From Alphaproteobacteria bacterium (lineage in GTDB: Bacteria > Pseudomonadota > Alphaproteobacteria > Micavibrionales > Micavibrionaceae), in contig JAJFGR010000007.1 in assembly GCA_021776025.1 (NCBI GenBank), positions 124,001 to 188,000 on the forward strand: a stretch of 64,000 nt of DNA, read 5' to 3'. Of the stretch, positions 43,656 through 49,184 are shown in pieces. Below the pieces are notes generated by a model. The model worked only from the letters and a program-made list of their open reading frames with translations, had not been told where the DNA came from and ran no database searches. The translations under genes and the position numbers were made by a program. Position 1 is the first letter of the stretch. Each line of letters starts with the position of its first letter.

Positions 43656-43784
43656 AGGCAATAGATGAGCGTATTTTAGTAAAAAAGCAAGGGTTTGAAG
43701 CGCATGTAGGCGCGAATTGATTGGACATTGCCTAATCTTTGCGTTTATATCGACGGAAATATCAACTCCATTACACGAAAACCT

Positions 43785-44885
43785 ATGCTGAACGCACTAG
43801 ACACACAATATACGCTGGGCGAAGACGGCCAGATTTTTTATCAAGAACAAGCCAGCAATCCTATGCCAGGCGAGTCGATTGCTATGTTGGCGAAAGGCGC
43901 TGATATCCTTAAGCCTAAGGTCATTTTGTTAGAGAATGCGGTTACGGCGGCGCAGGATAAAACAAAGCTGCGTGATTATGTGCAAGCTTGGTTAGGGCGG
44001 CATATTGGTGTGGTGCTGGAGCCTTTGGTGGCTTTGGAAGAAACGGGTGATTTTAAAGCCGCTGTTAAGGGCATCGCTTTTCAGGTGCATGAAGCGCTGG
44101 GAATTGTGCCGCGGGAACAGCTTGCAAGCCTGATTACTGAACTCGATGCTGATGATCGGCGTGATTTACGCTCCAAGAAAATTCGTCTTGGGCCTATTCT
44201 TGTTTTTATTCCTGCTTTGAATAAACCGGCGGCTGTGCGTTTGCGTGGTTTGCTGTGGGGGCTTTTCAATGACAAAGGCTTGCCGATGGATTGCCCCAAA
44301 GACGGTATTGTATCTTTTGAGATTGACCCTAAAGCGATTGATCGTTTGTTCTATCAGGCCATTGCTTATCCCGTCTATGCCAAGCGTGCGATCCGCATTG
44401 ATATGCTGGACCGGGTGATTAGCGCCGTTTATGACGGTGCGAAAGAGGGTAAGTTTAAGGCTGAACATAAGATGGCGGAGTGGCTCGGGTGCTCTATTGA
44501 GGGGCTATATGAAGTTTTGGAAGCGATGGGTCATAAGAAAGTTTATGATCCTGCTGCGGAGGCGGAAAAAGCAGTAGAGGGAGCCCCTAAAACGGAAGAG
44601 GCGAAGACCGAAGACAAGCAGGAAGAAACCCTTAAGGAGAATGGTGAACAAGAAAAACCTGAGCTGGCGACATTCCGCTTGAAAAAAGGCAAAGCTTTTG
44701 AGAAGGCGCAAAGCGCCGCTAAGAAGCCGTTTGTTAAAAAAGACAAACCAGAAAAATCTAAAGGTAAACGTAACAAAGACACAAATCGTACACCAAAAGT
44801 TATGAGTGCTCCGGCAAAGAAAATTGAAGATTCACCGTTTGCCATTCTTGAGCAGCTTAAAAAACAATCTAATGAGAAATCTTAA
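43785..44885 (+). CDS. Stand-alone C-terminal module of SUV3-like helicase
   Basis: About 366 residues. The run RDYVQAWLGRHIGVVLEPL, GIAFQVHEALGIVPRE, DLRSKKIRLGPILVFIPALN, KPAAVRLRGLLWGLF, IRIDMLDRV and the ending DSPFAILEQL with a basic Lys-rich linker match the C-terminal third of the large alphaproteobacterial SUV3/DEAD-type RNA helicase. Walker A/B and the helicase core are absent: an in-frame stop lies upstream at 43707 and the neighbouring gene is on the other strand. Starts at TTG 43728 or ATG 43785 are possible; homology begins at the second. Whether the helicase core is elsewhere in the genome is unknown. It overlaps the next gene by 14 bp. Confidence 0.82.
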   Translation: MLNALDTQYTLGEDGQIFYQEQASNPMPGESIAMLAKGADILKPKVILLENAVTAAQDKTKLRDYVQAWLGRHIGVVLEPLVALEETGDFKAAVKGIAFQVHEALGIVPREQLASLITELDADDRRDLRSKKIRLGPILVFIPALNKPAAVRLRGLLWGLFNDKGLPMDCPKDGIVSFEIDPKAIDRLFYQAIAYPVYAKRAIRIDMLDRVISAVYDGAKEGKFKAEHKMAEWLGCSIEGLYEVLEAMGHKKVYDPAAEAEKAVEGAPKTEEAKTEDKQEETLKENGEQEKPELATFRLKKGKAFEKAQSAAKKPFVKKDKPEKSKGKRNKDTNRTPKVMSAPAKKIEDSPFAILEQLKKQSNEKS

Positions 44886-45243
44886 TTTAATACTGGCATT
44901 TTTTACTGTTCTTGTGTCTGTGCAGCCTGTTTCTGCTGCGTGGTTTTCCGGTGATTATTTGTTACAGGTTTGTGGTGTTGATGCGAAAGATCAGGAGCTT
45001 GTGGAAGGTGGACATATTGCATGCCAAGCTTATATTGCAGGTGTGCTGGATTATCACAATCTCATTCGTTCATTGGGAACGTCACCGAGCGTCGATTTTT
45101 GTGTTCCTGAAGATGTAAGTATGCATGAAATTCATAAGAACGTGGTCAATTATATACATGAAAACCACCATGAGCAGGGGCCGTTTATTGCCGCGCCGGG
45201 TGTGGCGTTGGCGCTGTTTCAAGCCTATCCATGTCCTGAATAA
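44872..45243 (+). CDS. Exported Rap1a/Tai-type protein
   Basis: 123 residues. The start ATG lies inside the end of the helicase-module gene (14-bp overlap). A signal peptide (about 1-20, ending VSAA) precedes a domain with four cysteines: LLQVCGV, HIACQAYIAGVLDY, DFCVPEDV and AYPCPE. This pattern matches Rap1a/Tai-type proteins, which include immunity proteins for type VI amidase effectors but also many exported proteins of unknown role. No type VI genes are in the window. Transcriptional coupling to the helicase module follows from the overlap. Confidence 0.82.
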   Translation: MRNLNLILAFFTVLVSVQPVSAAWFSGDYLLQVCGVDAKDQELVEGGHIACQAYIAGVLDYHNLIRSLGTSPSVDFCVPEDVSMHEIHKNVVNYIHENHHEQGPFIAAPGVALALFQAYPCPE

Positions 45244-46275
45244 TCACATCGTATTAAACAGCATGCCGAGAATGATGATTTGCGGGACTGTGACCAGCGG
45301 TATGGATAGTGCAATCAGCCATGATTTGCTGAACTCGCGAACTACCAACATCTCAGTGTAATCCGTAGAGACACCAGCCATTAAAAACGCAAAGCCGTTG
45401 CCCGGCGCGGCGCCTGTGTTCATGATTTCTGCAGCGATAGGGGCGGAGCCTTCGGAACAGATCTCAACCAATGTTGCAACGATAAGCGTTACTCCCAGCC
45501 CCATCAATGTTGGGCCGAACCAATTCGCGAAAAATTCTGTGGGGATGTATGCGCGCATGGCCGCGGCTATAACTGCGCCGAAAAGGATCCAGCGAATAAT
45601 CATCTTGCCATCATGCCAGCCATCTCGGGCAATTTCTTTTACCCATGCCCATGATGGTTTCCATCCTTTCAGGCGAGCTTTTGCATCGGCCTTTACATCA
45701 AAGCTTTCAGGAACGTCGCAGGTGTTGGGGTTGGGGGGGAGGATGCCATGTTTAACGAGCGCGAGATAAATAAGGCCGGAGATGATGGCGATTATCATGG
45801 AGGCGAGAATAAATACAGCTGTCCATTTGAGACCAATGAGTGCGATTAAGATGAAAGTGAGGCTGAGTGAGTTCCACGGGCTGGCGATTAGGAAGGTTAG
45901 AACCTGAGCAATGGACAGGCCGCGCTCGTAAAGCTTACCGGTGATAACTAAGATACCGTGGTTGCACATGTCGAGGACAACGCCAGCGATGGCGGCTTTG
46001 ACAATGTCGCTGGCAGTATCACCGCGGCCCATGATAGCAGTGAAATATTCACGGGGAACTTTATTCATCAGGCCGACGGAGAGTAAGCCAAGCGCGACAC
46101 CCCATGACATATCGATGAGCAATTCCATTTGTGTGTGCACGAAAACGCCGAGGCCGGGGAATGTTATACCGATCGCGTGCATGGTCAGAGTCACCAGAAT
46201 TACTGCGAGTGAGCCGTGCATTATCCAGTCGGGCTTGAATTTCGGTTTTTCAACCGGGCAGCAATCATTGCTCAT
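45244..46275 (-). CDS. Permease (DUF318/ArsP-like)
   Basis: 343 residues, at least eight predicted transmembrane helices (for example VILVTLTMHAIGITFPG, IIRWILFGAVIAAAMR). The SEGSAPIAAEI motif and the paired repeats each side of the Pro-rich cytoplasmic loop are typical of the DUF318/ArsP-like permease family that exports organo-arsenicals or other metal compounds. Two cysteines begin the protein (MSNDCCPVEKPK). It is the last of the five-gene metal operon, 3 bp after the CsoR-type regulator gene, and so probably exports a metal species. Substrate not determined. Confidence 0.87.
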   Translation of the reverse strand: MSNDCCPVEKPKFKPDWIMHGSLAVILVTLTMHAIGITFPGLGVFVHTQMELLIDMSWGVALGLLSVGLMNKVPREYFTAIMGRGDTASDIVKAAIAGVVLDMCNHGILVITGKLYERGLSIAQVLTFLIASPWNSLSLTFILIALIGLKWTAVFILASMIIAIISGLIYLALVKHGILPPNPNTCDVPESFDVKADAKARLKGWKPSWAWVKEIARDGWHDGKMIIRWILFGAVIAAAMRAYIPTEFFANWFGPTLMGLGVTLIVATLVEICSEGSAPIAAEIMNTGAAPGNGFAFLMAGVSTDYTEMLVVREFSKSWLIALSIPLVTVPQIIILGMLFNTM

Positions 46276-46278
46276 GGT

Positions 46279-46563
46279 TTAAGCCTCGTCATAACGTTTA
46301 AAGAGGTCCTTGATCTCGTTAATTTTTTCCTGTGCGGCGGCTTTATCATTGCCTTCAAAAGCGTCGGTAACGCAATGTTGCAGGTGCGCTTCGAGCACTT
46401 GCGCTTCGACAGTGCGAACAGCTGAACGCACTGCTTTTAATTGCGCCAAAATTTCAGGGCAATAACGGTTGTCCTCAATCATGCGTTTGACGCCTTCAAC
46501 TTGTCCGGCGATCCGGTTGAGTTTGGTAAGTTCTTTTTGGTGGCATGGGTGTTTGTCAGTCAT
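46279..46563 (-). CDS. csoR: CsoR-family copper-type metalloregulator
   Basis: 94 residues, the family length. The Cu(I) ligands fit Cys35 (in NRYCPEI), His60 and Cys64 (in EAHLQHC), the Cys-His-Cys set of CsoR rather than the RcnR or FrmR sets. An N-terminal HPCH motif (His5, Cys7, His8) is also present. CsoR-type proteins repress metal-efflux genes and release DNA on metal binding. It lies inside the operon it probably controls; an ATACCC/GGGTAT inverted repeat sits just before the first gene (48239-48255). The metal could be Cu(I) or another soft metal. Confidence 0.92.
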   Translation of the reverse strand: MTDKHPCHQKELTKLNRIAGQVEGVKRMIEDNRYCPEILAQLKAVRSAVRTVEAQVLEAHLQHCVTDAFEGNDKAAAQEKINEIKDLFKRYDEA

Positions 46564-46571
46564 TGTTCCTC

Positions 46572-46955
46572 TTAAGATAAAATGTAAGGTGCTACAAAGG
46601 CGAAAAAAGCACCAGTTAAAAACATCGCAACCGATAAAATATAGATTACGAGACTAATTTTGCGGAGTCGTGTGCAGATTTTGGCTTTCGCTGGGTCAGC
46701 CGGGCACGGGGCGTTGCGCCCGCGCCATTGTATAAACCCTGCAATGGTTAACATGATTGTGGCGAAACCGAATACTTCGGCTTTGTGCATCGATATCCAG
46801 ATAAGCTGTGGGAAGTCGCTAGCGAGGCCTGCGAGAGTAGCACCCATACCGATTGTTACAAGCAGGGCAGGTAGGGCACAGCAGATTAATGTGCTCGCCG
46901 AAGTGAACAGGCTGAGTGTTGGGGCAAGTGTGTCCTTGAAGCTGTAATGTTTCAT
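46572..46955 (-). CDS. MerT-like small membrane protein
   Basis: 127 residues, three transmembrane segments, with adjacent cysteines in the first (TLICCALPALLV), the hallmark of MerT-like mercury or heavy-metal transport proteins, and two further cysteines in the loop CPADPAKAKIC. Such a protein would pass metal ions between a periplasmic carrier and the cytoplasm. It is part of the five-gene metal operon, with its start overlapping the OM-barrel gene's stop at 46955. MerT and MerC are the closest relatives I recognise; I am unsure which. Confidence 0.72.
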   Translation of the reverse strand: MKHYSFKDTLAPTLSLFTSASTLICCALPALLVTIGMGATLAGLASDFPQLIWISMHKAEVFGFATIMLTIAGFIQWRGRNAPCPADPAKAKICTRLRKISLVIYILSVAMFLTGAFFAFVAPYILS

Positions 46956-47821
46956 TAAAACGTTATTCCGATGCCGATGTTGAACTCAGGGCCGCGAGAG
47001 TTTGAAATACTGCTGGTGTTCTCATAAACCGGGTGTTTGTATTCTGTGCGGAACATGACGTTGTCCTTGTAGAGCACAAGCAGTGGGCCGGAATGAACGC
47101 GGGAGCCACCCGAAGCGGTTGTAAGGTTTCTTGAGCTTGGATCTTCGTTATGGCGCGCGGTGACATCCCACATGATAAAAGCGCCAGAGTTTGTATCATC
47201 GTCATGATAGGGGTGATAGCCGAGATTAACATCTAGCCCGTATGTGTTGCCCGCTTTCATGTCGCGCTTGCCTTCTGTATTGATCCAGGTGAAGGCGTCA
47301 ATGAGGGTGTAGTATTTCGGGTCTTCGCTGCTGTAGGAAAAGCTCAAGCCTAGATCTGTGCTGCCGTCGCTGATTGGGAAGGCGCCGGAAGTGCTGCCTG
47401 TTGGCAGGCGCACGGAAGGTGTAAAGCCGAAATTCTGGGTGAAAGCGCCTTGATTGCTGTAGAGCTTGAGCGGGACACCGAGCACTAGGTCGCCTGATCC
47501 GCTATTATCCTGTTTAACGCCGACGCCGCCAATATTTTTTGTGCGTTCTTGCTGAATATAGGGCATTTTGAATGTGATACGTTTTGAGCGCTCGAAAGTG
47601 TAAACGCCTTCAAACCATGTTTTGTGAACAAAGCGTTCAAGGTCGAGGGGGTTTGCGATTTCGGAATCACCATCCATCAATGTATCAGAGCCATAGGTTT
47701 CATGACGAACTTGAAAACCATATCCGTCTTCCCAGCGTGGTGCCATATCCATGACAGGTTGGTGAGCTTGGGCGGGGGCTACAATAAATAGACCCAGCAG
47801 GGGCAGTATGAATTTTTTCAT
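46955..47821 (-). CDS. Outer-membrane beta-barrel protein
   Basis: 288 residues. A signal peptide (about 1-20) is followed by a beta-rich sequence with alternating aromatic strands ending in FNIGIGITF, the terminal Phe of many outer-membrane barrels. HQPVMDMAPRWEDGYGFQVRHE near the mature start is distinctive. The family resembles the MetA-pathway or transporter-type barrel proteins. It starts immediately after the HMA-type gene (ATG overlapping its stop region) and overlaps the MerT-like gene at 46955. It could provide the outer-membrane exit for the metal system, which is inference. Confidence 0.8.
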   Translation of the reverse strand: MKKFILPLLGLFIVAPAQAHQPVMDMAPRWEDGYGFQVRHETYGSDTLMDGDSEIANPLDLERFVHKTWFEGVYTFERSKRITFKMPYIQQERTKNIGGVGVKQDNSGSGDLVLGVPLKLYSNQGAFTQNFGFTPSVRLPTGSTSGAFPISDGSTDLGLSFSYSSEDPKYYTLIDAFTWINTEGKRDMKAGNTYGLDVNLGYHPYHDDDTNSGAFIMWDVTARHNEDPSSRNLTTASGGSRVHSGPLLVLYKDNVMFRTEYKHPVYENTSSISNSRGPEFNIGIGITF

Positions 47822-47822
47822 T

Positions 47823-48227
47823 TTACAAATCCTTAGGTGTGTGGATGCTGCCGTCATTCATATAGGCTTTAACGGGTTCGTAACCGCCGGATTTTATCGA
47901 TTCAAAAATAACGTCGAAATCAGGCTCCATGCCGGGTTTAATAGCGATTGTTACTTTTTGATCTGAAATTTCGACCTTCACGCCTTTTGTATATTTAGAC
48001 GGGTCAATAAAATCTAGTTTCGAGAGTTTTTTGGTGACACCTTGTGAGCAAAAGGAACAGACAATACCGTGGACTATAATAATAGATTCGTCTGGTTGCG
48101 CCTTGATGTTAGCATCAATCAGTGGTTTATTTATAGCTGGTGTGTGGTCATGCCCTTTGTGATCTGCAAGCGCCGGAACAGGGAGGGTAAACAGGCAAAA
48201 AGCCATGGGGATAAGTGTGTATTTCAT
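47823..48227 (-). CDS. Periplasmic heavy-metal-associated (HMA-type) protein
   Basis: 134 residues. A signal peptide (about 1-21) is followed by a His-rich patch DHKGHDH (22-28) and an HMA-like fold with HGIVCSFCSQGV (Cys57, Cys60), the GxxCxxC metal-binding loop of MerP or CopZ-type carriers. The C-terminal half continues with KVTIAIKPGME and GGYEP, typical HMA strands. It is the first gene of the metal operon, and the CsoR-type operator lies 12 bp upstream of its start. It probably passes metal to or from MerT-like or barrel components. Confidence 0.86.
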   Translation of the reverse strand: MKYTLIPMAFCLFTLPVPALADHKGHDHTPAINKPLIDANIKAQPDESIIIVHGIVCSFCSQGVTKKLSKLDFIDPSKYTKGVKVEISDQKVTIAIKPGMEPDFDVIFESIKSGGYEPVKAYMNDGSIHTPKDL

Positions 48228-48238
48228 ATGCCTAGAGT

Positions 48239-48255
48239 ATACCCTGTGGGGGTAT
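48239..48255 (-). promoter_or_regulatory. CsoR-type operator with overlapping promoter
   Basis: ATACCC (48239-48244), a 5-bp spacer and GGGTAT (48250-48255) form the inverted repeat expected for CsoR/RcnR/FrmR-family repressors. On the minus strand TTGACA (48262-48257) and TATACT (48241-48236) overlap it, 15 bp apart, which is shorter than ideal. It stands just before the HMA-type gene, so repression of the whole five-gene operon by the encoded CsoR homologue is likely. Confidence 0.82.
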
Positions 48256-48318: not shown

Positions 48319-48735
48319 ATGGACAATTTTCCAGAGCGTTTAGTATTTGTAGATGACGAGCAGGATTTGCGTGAGATGGTGCGTGCAACCATTGAGGATG
48401 CTGGCTATAAAGGTGCGTTTGCAGCTTGTGGTTCGGGGGAAGAGCTTTTAAGTCGAATACGTGTGCTTCAACCGGAGCTGATTTTGCTGGATCTTAAAAT
48501 GCCGGGCATGGATGGTCCTGATGTGATGGCCGCGCTGCACGCTCATCCCGATGCAACGGGCACTCCCATTGTTTTGTGTACGGGGTCACTTAAGCTTGAA
48601 ATGGTTGAGCTGTATAGGCCGCTTGGCGTGGTTGGGGTTATTCACAAACCATTGGATCTGGATAATTTGATGAGCAACATTCAAGAGCTTTGGGCTGCTT
48701 ATTGTGAGCAGAATGATGAACAGGACACGGAATAG
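48319..48735 (+). CDS. Single-domain response regulator
   Basis: 138 residues, a receiver domain with no output domain. Acidic pocket Asp12/Asp13 (VDDEQD), phosphoacceptor Asp58 in LILLDLKMPG and switch residues Thr88 and Lys110 (HKPLD). Such proteins relay phosphate or act by protein contact, as CheY and SpdR-like single-domain regulators do. GAGGGG precedes the ATG. It faces a second receiver gene (48738-49184), ending 2 bp from it. No kinase is close. Confidence 0.9.
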   Translation: MDNFPERLVFVDDEQDLREMVRATIEDAGYKGAFAACGSGEELLSRIRVLQPELILLDLKMPGMDGPDVMAALHAHPDATGTPIVLCTGSLKLEMVELYRPLGVVGVIHKPLDLDNLMSNIQELWAAYCEQNDEQDTE

Positions 48736-48737
48736 TT

Positions 48738-49184
48738 TTAATTTTTTGGTGGAAGTGTGGCGATTCCAAGCCAAAAATCACTGATGACATTTACAGTTTT
48801 TTTGAATTTCATAAAATTGGCTGGTTTTTTAATGAAACAATTTGCGTGTTGGAGATAGCTCTCAGACACATCCTCGGACGTATCTGATGCTGTTAAAACA
48901 ATGATAGGGATTTGCAAGAGTTTTGGGTCAGCTTTGACGACACGCAAAAATTCAAGTCCGTCAAACTCAGGCATTTTTAAATCAAGAAAAATCAAGTCGG
49001 GGCGCGGGGCATCTTTATAGGTGTCCTTATTGTTTAGGAAATCGATTGCGCTAGAGGCGTCGTGTAAAACATGAACACTGTTGGATATTGTCGCGTCATT
49101 AATAGCTTCTGCCATTAAGGTGGTGTCGCTTTCACTATCATCGATAATTAATATATCGGCAGGTTTGCGCGGCGTGTCTGTCAT
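48738..49184 (-). CDS. Single-domain response regulator, Rcp1-like
   Basis: 148 residues. The receiver fold has acidic Asp15/Asp16 (IIDDSESD), phosphoacceptor Asp68 in LIFLDLKMPE and Lys120 (IKKPAN). The pattern MPEFDGLEFL and the extended N- and C-termini fit the Rcp1-like single-domain family linked to phytochrome or other histidine kinases. It is convergent with the other receiver gene and 18 bp from ispB on the same strand, so possibly co-transcribed downstream of ispB. Kinase partner unknown. Confidence 0.9.
   Translation of the reverse strand: MTDTPRKPADILIIDDSESDTTLMAEAINDATISNSVHVLHDASSAIDFLNNKDTYKDAPRPDLIFLDLKMPEFDGLEFLRVVKADPKLLQIPIIVLTASDTSEDVSESYLQHANCFIKKPANFMKFKKTVNVISDFWLGIATLPPKN

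Follow-up and report, generated by a model that had tools for sequence, protein, structure and literature searches.

What would a small operon do that combines a metal-sensing repressor of the CsoR family with a permease, a periplasmic metal carrier, an outer-membrane barrel and a membrane protein that resembles the MerT of mercury operons? We asked this of five genes in a stretch of 64,000 nucleotides (the window) from an alphaproteobacterium of the family Micavibrionaceae (assembly GCA_021776025.1, contig JAJFGR010000007.1, positions 124,001 to 188,000). The original prediction, made from the sequence alone, was that these genes form a CsoR-controlled route for export or detoxification. Our results bear this out in part and imply that two conserved units are joined here: a module of barrel, HMA carrier and MerT-like protein, and a permease that may or may not come with CsoR. 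We give roughly even chances to the idea that the operon is a Cu(I)-responsive detoxification system, in which the permease would export copper to the periplasm and the module would carry it onward.

Results

Layout of the operon

All five open reading frames lie where they had been placed, on the minus strand, in the order HMA, barrel, MerT-like protein, CsoR and permease. The features are:

48239..48255, no strand assigned: CsoR-type operator ATACCC-N5-GGGTAT, between a TTGACA hexamer and a TATACT hexamer
47823..48227, minus strand: HMA carrier (periplasmic, MerP/CopZ-like) with a CSFC motif and, by eye, a Sec-type signal peptide
46955..47821, minus strand: outer-membrane barrel of the PF13557/COG4313 kind; a start at 47821 is likelier than one at 47857
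46572..46955, minus strand: MerT-like small helical membrane protein with Cys25-Cys26 and Cys84/Cys94
46279..46563, minus strand: CsoR-family repressor (PF02583) with Cys35/His60/Cys64
45244..46275, minus strand: ArsP_1/DUF318 permease (PF03773), distantly SO_0444-like; its closest relatives are permeases of the same genus

The genes had been described as overlapping or lying within 9 bp of each other, and this holds with the likelier barrel start, which is the methionine of the signal peptide: the HMA gene ends at 47823, 1 nucleotide from the barrel; barrel and MerT-like gene overlap by 1 nucleotide at 46955; and the next two gaps are 8 nucleotides (MerT-like protein to CsoR) and 3 nucleotides (CsoR to permease). 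The longer barrel frame, from the ATG at 47857, would overlap the HMA gene by 35 nucleotides.

Regulation by CsoR

The repressor belongs to the CsoR family (PF02583, 95.2 bits against a cut-off of 22.8), and the residues that had been proposed as its metal ligands, Cys35, His60 and Cys64, do align with the solved CsoR 4m1p (PDB sequence match, E 7e-18). In an alignment of 18 sequences, one of which (from locus L218) is truncated at a contig end, Cys35 is invariant and Cys64 nearly so. The best NCBIfam match is the copper-sensing RicR, at 69.9 bits and thus under the cut-off of 175. We also considered a CstR-like persulfide sensor, and rejected this reading since the repressor retains the His60 of the copper triad.

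The proposed operator of ATACCC and GGGTAT arms lies at exactly 48239-48255, 11 nucleotides before the HMA start codon, and reads ATACCC-TGTGG-GGGTAT. With a spacer of four bases there is no exact match in the window; the true spacer is five. Neither the window nor the 2.3-Mb genome has a second exact copy, but counts alone are weak evidence. If up to two mismatches are allowed, the window has 2 sites against a mean of 1.0 in shuffled sequence (25 of 100 shuffles reach 2), and with up to one mismatch the genome has four sites (the exact one and three others), which equals the control with the reversed pattern. What raises the operator above chance is its recurrence: it is found exactly before operons that contain CsoR and is absent before those that do not. 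We scanned upstream regions for ATACCC-N-GGGTAT with up to three mismatches, and an exact operator was present in 21 of 24 operon rows from CsoR-bearing loci (three of the 24 are duplicates) and in 0 of 150 rows without CsoR, where the best sites had two mismatches in 3 rows and three mismatches in 30, and 117 rows had no site. Counted by distinct CsoR loci, the operator is present in 20 of 21, 18 of them by script and two (L107 and L218) on re-inspection; in the remaining locus, L211, the CsoR gene is about 3 kb off. The arms are constant across loci while the letters of the spacer vary, and the spacer has five bases everywhere except in L224, where it has six.

By eye, TTGAC lies within 5 nucleotides upstream of the operator in 11 of 18 loci, and a TATA-like hexamer often overlaps the right arm. 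In the window, we read the hexamers TTGACA and TATACT by eye as well, with a spacer of 15 nucleotides to TATACT; a promoter scan did not report this promoter. Because such hexamers flank or overlap the operator, a bound repressor would block the promoter. Control of the operon by CsoR, as predicted from these sequences, is the strongest result of our analysis. The genome holds no second exact operator, and this CsoR probably serves only this operon.

A conserved module and a separate permease

If the five families formed a single system, they should occur together in other genomes. We searched 143 genomes of relatives, including the genome with the window. The exact gene set is rare, with 2 of 143 genomes (the window's own and G078; G numbers denote genomes and L numbers loci), but both halves of the operon are conserved. 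The usual barrel elsewhere is an unnamed family of about 213 amino acids, which we call BAR5. If either barrel is accepted, then barrel, HMA, MerT-like protein, CsoR and permease are joined in 4 of 143 genomes: the window's own and G078 have the window barrel, while G015 and G073 have BAR5. Two further genomes (G034 and G060) have BAR5, HMA, CsoR and permease without the MerT-like protein. In its MerT-like protein and its cluster, G015, which belongs to the family of the window's genome, is the same as the MAG Micavibrio sp. DHS20C02 (L155), so the window probably comes from a relative of Micavibrio. The conserved units are barrel-HMA-MerT-like on the one hand and permease, with or without CsoR, on the other.

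The MerT-like protein has matches in 49 of the 143 genomes, 39 of them strong. We analyzed the window and 37 other loci, leaving aside ten genomes with weak matches only and one fragment (G091), and called the neighboring genes with iterated models. An HMA gene adjoins the MerT-like gene in all 38 loci. (A second-round HMA model gives 35 of 38: the HMA proteins of L148-L150 are under its threshold, yet are present by neighbor calls.) A barrel stands beside the HMA-MerT pair in 36 of 38: 32 of these loci have BAR5 and four have a barrel related to that of the window, never both, and L149 and L150 have none. One of these relatives, in L148, is distant from the window barrel (27% identity) and has no Pfam match of its own.

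The same arrangement is found far more widely. A scan of one genome per species with the MerT-like alignment gave at least 561 confirmed loci, of which we analyzed the best 80 (ten of these come from genomes that also belong to the relatives set). Among these best 80, HMA lies within 300 nucleotides in 78 and a barrel is present in 79 (78 BAR5 and one of the window type); the only locus without a barrel, L169, begins at a contig end. By record titles, the 80 loci are from Betaproteobacteria (44), Alphaproteobacteria (19), Gammaproteobacteria (7), other Pseudomonadota (4), Bdellovibrionota (3) and Dadabacteria (2), with one unplaced. In 50 of the 80 there is also a small secreted protein rich in cysteine and histidine (C12) upstream; it precedes BAR5 in many loci and has 74 profile matches overall, some of them weak. 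The C12 protein of L195 (4466-4840) is weakly CopL-like (NCBIfam 28 bits, cut-off 40, 2.8e-6), and that of L196 (4562-4921) had no CopL match in the NCBIfam scan.

The permease has a distribution of its own. It has matches in 60 of 143 genomes (58 strong), and we analyzed the window and 55 other loci, of which three are shared with the MerT-like set; we omitted G086 and G127 (weak matches only), G098 and G121 (fragments at contig edges) and weak second copies in G071 and G097. CsoR is directly upstream of the permease in 15 of 56 loci, and HMA is near it in six by neighbor calls or in four with a distance limit. In many loci, the permease sits at a syntenic site, with a polyprenyl synthetase, response regulators, a Rap1a-like gene and a conserved unnamed gene. 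The other six genomes of the window's genus (G001-G006) have the permease without CsoR or the module in front of it, and four of the six carry BAR5-HMA-MerT elsewhere in the genome.

Proteins of the module

As proposed, the HMA protein is periplasmic and has a CxxC motif (CSFC), whose cysteines are invariant in the HMA alignment. Its match to PF00403, at 16.5 bits, is under the cut-off of 24.8, while that of its close relative from L147 is above it (27.0 bits). HMA proteins of the window kind (E up to 1e-10) were found in 3 of 143 genomes: the window's own, G078 and G101.

Another protein of the module had been called MerT-like. Its cysteines are of the MerT type, but it does not belong to the MerT family as the models define it. 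PF02411 (MerT) matched neither this protein nor any other in its genome, family members from G093 and G104 match it weakly (18.3 and 16.2 bits, cut-off 32.9), and the NCBIfam MerTP_fusion model gives 13.1 bits against a cut-off of 180. On the other hand, Cys25, Cys26, Cys84 and Cys94 are invariant in 22 sequences, and when the profile is compared by hhalign with three MerT proteins that relatives carry in mer-like loci (95.8% probability, E 7e-9), the CC pair falls on the CC pair and Cys94 on the second loop cysteine of MerT. Cys84 is shifted; there are nine residues between the loop cysteines here and five in the three MerT proteins. The only PDB match is weak (cytochrome oxidase, E 0.65), and we take it as chance. 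By "MerT-like" we therefore mean a remote homolog, judging from these alignments, and the protein may act as a membrane protein that relays metal between thiols. The mer context is also missing: we found no MerR or reductase domains among the 14 window proteins scanned (41.0-51.3 kb).

The window barrel is of an outer-membrane type, as had been claimed (PF13557, 33.9 bits, cut-off 22), and its sole PDB match is weak, to the COG4313 channel 4rl8 (E 0.59). Barrels of this kind (E up to 1e-5) occur in the same three of 143 genomes as the window kind of HMA, and the two genes are adjacent each time. We found no PF13557 relatives of the window barrel in plasmids, and none beyond its own genome in 289 genomes of the class or 398 of the phylum. 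Two BAR5 members had no Pfam and no NCBIfam match, and one BAR5 protein used as query had no match in plasmids. An AlphaFold2 model of BAR5 from 38 sequences (mean pLDDT 91.7) has 12 strands, so BAR5 is predicted to be a 12-stranded outer-membrane barrel. The best structural matches of the model are autotransporter barrels (Z 18.2) and KdgM (Z 15.5); it also matches 4rl8 (Z 14.6, rmsd 3.4 over 176 residues) and PcoB (Z 11.8). The COG4313 structure is described as a 12-stranded barrel resembling autotransporters (PMC4493636). Because both the COG4313 structure and the BAR5 model are 12-stranded and autotransporter-like, it is plausible that the window barrel is a stand-in for BAR5. This common fold carries no specific information about function.

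Joint replacement of barrel and carrier

The window and G078 are 73% identical in HMA, 82% in the barrel, 78% in the MerT-like protein, 64% in CsoR and 59% in the permease. G101, from a different family, is 65% and 73% identical to the window in HMA and barrel, but only 45% in the MerT-like protein. For G015, which has BAR5, the identities are 33% for HMA, 75% for the MerT-like protein, 60% for CsoR and 57% for the permease. (The permease of G003, from the same genus, is 74% identical to the window permease.) In the HMA tree, the window, G078 and G101 form a clade (support 100/100) and a grouping of the window, G078 and G015 is rejected (p-AU 0.0007). In the MerT-like tree, the grouping of the window, G078 and G101 is rejected (p-AU 0.0015), and the window, G078, G015, G073 and G021 form a supported set (99/95). 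For both trees, the groups were picked once the identities were known, and the HMA tree has long branches, L148 being flagged.

The HMA and MerT-like trees conflict, and the window locus has exchanged barrel and HMA jointly for a PF13557 barrel and the HMA that goes with it. The simplest account would be that BAR5-HMA, next to a MerT-like gene already in place, gave way to an HMA-barrel pair like that of G101, and that the cassette of HMA, barrel and MerT-like gene then moved between the lineages of G078 and the window, in one direction or the other, and landed at a resident permease. That the barrel and the carrier were swapped jointly is evolutionary evidence that the two work together.

The permease and the absence of a P-type ATPase

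The permease is of the DUF318/ArsP type, as predicted (PF03773 ArsP_1, 105.2 bits, cut-off 32.3), and its Cys104 and Cys273 are invariant in 16 relatives. A PDB sequence search gave no match. Against NF033936, the equivalog for the Cu/Zn efflux permease SO_0444, it scores 94.7 bits (E 6e-27), which is far under the cut-off of 300. SO_0444 is needed for growth under copper or zinc stress (PMC3219624), and a transporter annotated as SO_0444 is induced by copper and cadmium (PMC10092412). The window permease resembles these permeases in the PF03773 domain, the conserved cysteines and the adjoining metal regulator, which is CsoR here and is described as ZntR-like for SO_0444 (PMC3219624).

No P-type ATPase (PF00122, E1-E2 domain) was found in the genome with the window, an assembly of 2.3 Mb in 24 contigs that is 99.98% complete; all 14 controls were positive, and the domain is present in 104 of the 143 genomes. 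Because the genome lacks this domain, the permease is the likeliest exporter of copper from the cytosol.

Neighboring genes and plasmid relatives

A Rap1a-like gene (44806-45243, plus strand, PF18602) abuts the end of the permease gene, and its cluster is near the permease in 27 loci, including the window. A 385-amino-acid protein (43728-44885, plus strand) has no Pfam match and is conserved near the permease in 39 loci, again including the window. Directly upstream of the operon are two convergent genes for single-domain response regulators (48319-48735, plus strand, and 48738-49184, minus strand), whose cluster is found in 15 loci.

The MerT-like protein has relatives in nine plasmid records (Variovorax 4, Xanthomonas 3, Vibrio 2). 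In a plasmid of Vibrio diabolicus (L152:4736-5668), the MerT-like frame overlaps the start of an annotated HMA gene in another frame; an annotated gene for a GDCCVxC (seleno)protein adjoins, and a Tn3-family transposase gene is near.

Discussion

The absence of a P-type ATPase, together with the role of SO_0444 under copper or zinc stress, leads us to read the operon as copper-induced detoxification. While cytosolic Cu(I) is low, CsoR would sit on the operator within the promoter and repress its own operon; Cu(I) bound at Cys35, His60 and Cys64 would release it. The permease would then export Cu(I) from the cytoplasm into the periplasm. By thiol exchange, the MerT-like protein and the periplasmic carrier would pass the metal between inner membrane and periplasm, and the barrel would be the passage through the outer membrane. 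That copper is the inducer and that the permease exports it are suggested by what is known of these families. We only infer that the MerT-like protein and the barrel work outward and that the parts are in physical contact. In favor of copper we also count some neighbors of the module: the CopL-like C12 protein, the genes directly downstream of the module in L181 (for a CPx-type ATPase and another HMA protein), and a multicopper oxidase beside it in L137.

CsoR operons, MerT/MerP pairs and ArsP_1 permeases are already known kinds, and the operon shares features with each. Like the csoR-copZ-copA copper efflux operons, it has a repressor with the Cys-His-Cys triad, a palindromic operator in the promoter, autoregulation, an HMA protein and an inner-membrane transporter. 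It differs in that there is no CopA ATPase, the HMA protein has a signal peptide, the transporter is of the ArsP_1 type, and a barrel and a MerT-like protein are added. With the MerT and MerP of mer operons it shares the CC near the N-terminal helix, the second pair of cysteines in a loop and an adjoining periplasmic CxxC HMA protein, but the window locus has an outer-membrane barrel where merR and merA would be. The barrel is like the COG4313 channels in its PF13557 match, but those channels are described as implicated in uptake of hydrophobic molecules, and the portion of the source that we draw on names no HMA or MerT partner (PMC4493636); the window barrel has both partners.

Several results weigh against copper detoxification. 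The characterized MerT proteins import metal, and it would be odd to induce an importer alongside an exporter. There is no CsoR within 2 kb of the module in 34 of 38 loci from relatives or in 72 of the best 80 loci (it is present in 8 of 80), so copper control should not be assumed for the whole family. Copper or P-type ATPase genes turn up in a motif scan at only a few loci (L137, L181, L215, L224 and L230), and the CsoR of L188 has tyrosine at the position of His60. We tried the idea that the permease substitutes for a P-type ATPase across relatives, and found no association (p 0.48); within the same family, the ATPase is present in 34 of 48 genomes with the permease and in 32 of 41 without it. 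The genome with the window also has two strong RND pumps that would be capable of export across the outer membrane. Finally, a two-sequence model of the window barrel has a pLDDT of just 29, and we found no barrel, by the present models, in the three plasmid regions that we inspected.

The main rival, and a serious one, is uptake, which we consider possible rather than probable. The barrel, the HMA protein and the MerT-like protein would bring a scarce soft metal such as copper inward, as MerP and MerT do for mercury, and the permease and CsoR would have joined the module later to guard against overload. Remote homology to an importer with a similar plan of cysteines fits this idea, as does the usual lack of CsoR near the module. 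Also, many of the best 80 loci are from Methylophilus, Methylotenera and their kin (by record titles), and COG4313 barrels have been implicated in the uptake of hydrophobic molecules (PMC4493636). But derepression of CsoR in metal excess is ill-suited to a system of acquisition, and the CopL-like and CPx ATPase neighbors suggest tolerance, though in few loci.

Another idea, which we think improbable, is detoxification of some other soft metal, chiefly Hg(II), Ag(I) or an arsenical, by MerT/MerP-like handling and an ArsP-like permease. The MerT- and MerP-like parts and the ArsP_1 permease are what would be expected in that case, but there is no reductase among the operon genes, PF02411 has no match in the genome, and the sensor has the Cys-His-Cys copper triad and is tied to the operator. 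Less likely still is that there is no pathway, and that metal genes which each act alone piled up under one promoter by chance: module genes are absent beside the permease in 50 of 56 loci and the joined form is rare, but the module taken by itself is near-obligate, the same operator precedes both barrel versions of the joined operon, and barrel and HMA were swapped as a unit.

Returning to copper detoxification, the export of copper across the outer membrane is usually ascribed to RND-TolC pumps or to PcoB-type barrels. The small module described here combines a barrel with an HMA carrier in the periplasm; some lineages have it under CsoR. In the chromosomal loci that we examined it is near-obligate beside the MerT-like gene. 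Its specific genes had no Pfam or NCBIfam name above cut-off in the representatives scanned, save the HMA domain and the PF13557 barrel of the window, and in the open-access literature that we searched we found no description of the gene set, of the BAR5-HMA-MerT-like module or of the paired exchange. Our speculation, on which we would not insist, is that the module is an undescribed and widespread proteobacterial pathway for copper across the envelope, without RND pumps or TolC, in which a MerT-type protein would work outward and hand the metal to a dedicated carrier in the periplasm, each carrier being matched to one barrel, so that neither can be exchanged without the other. Because barrel and carrier were swapped jointly, a handover from carrier to barrel is testable.

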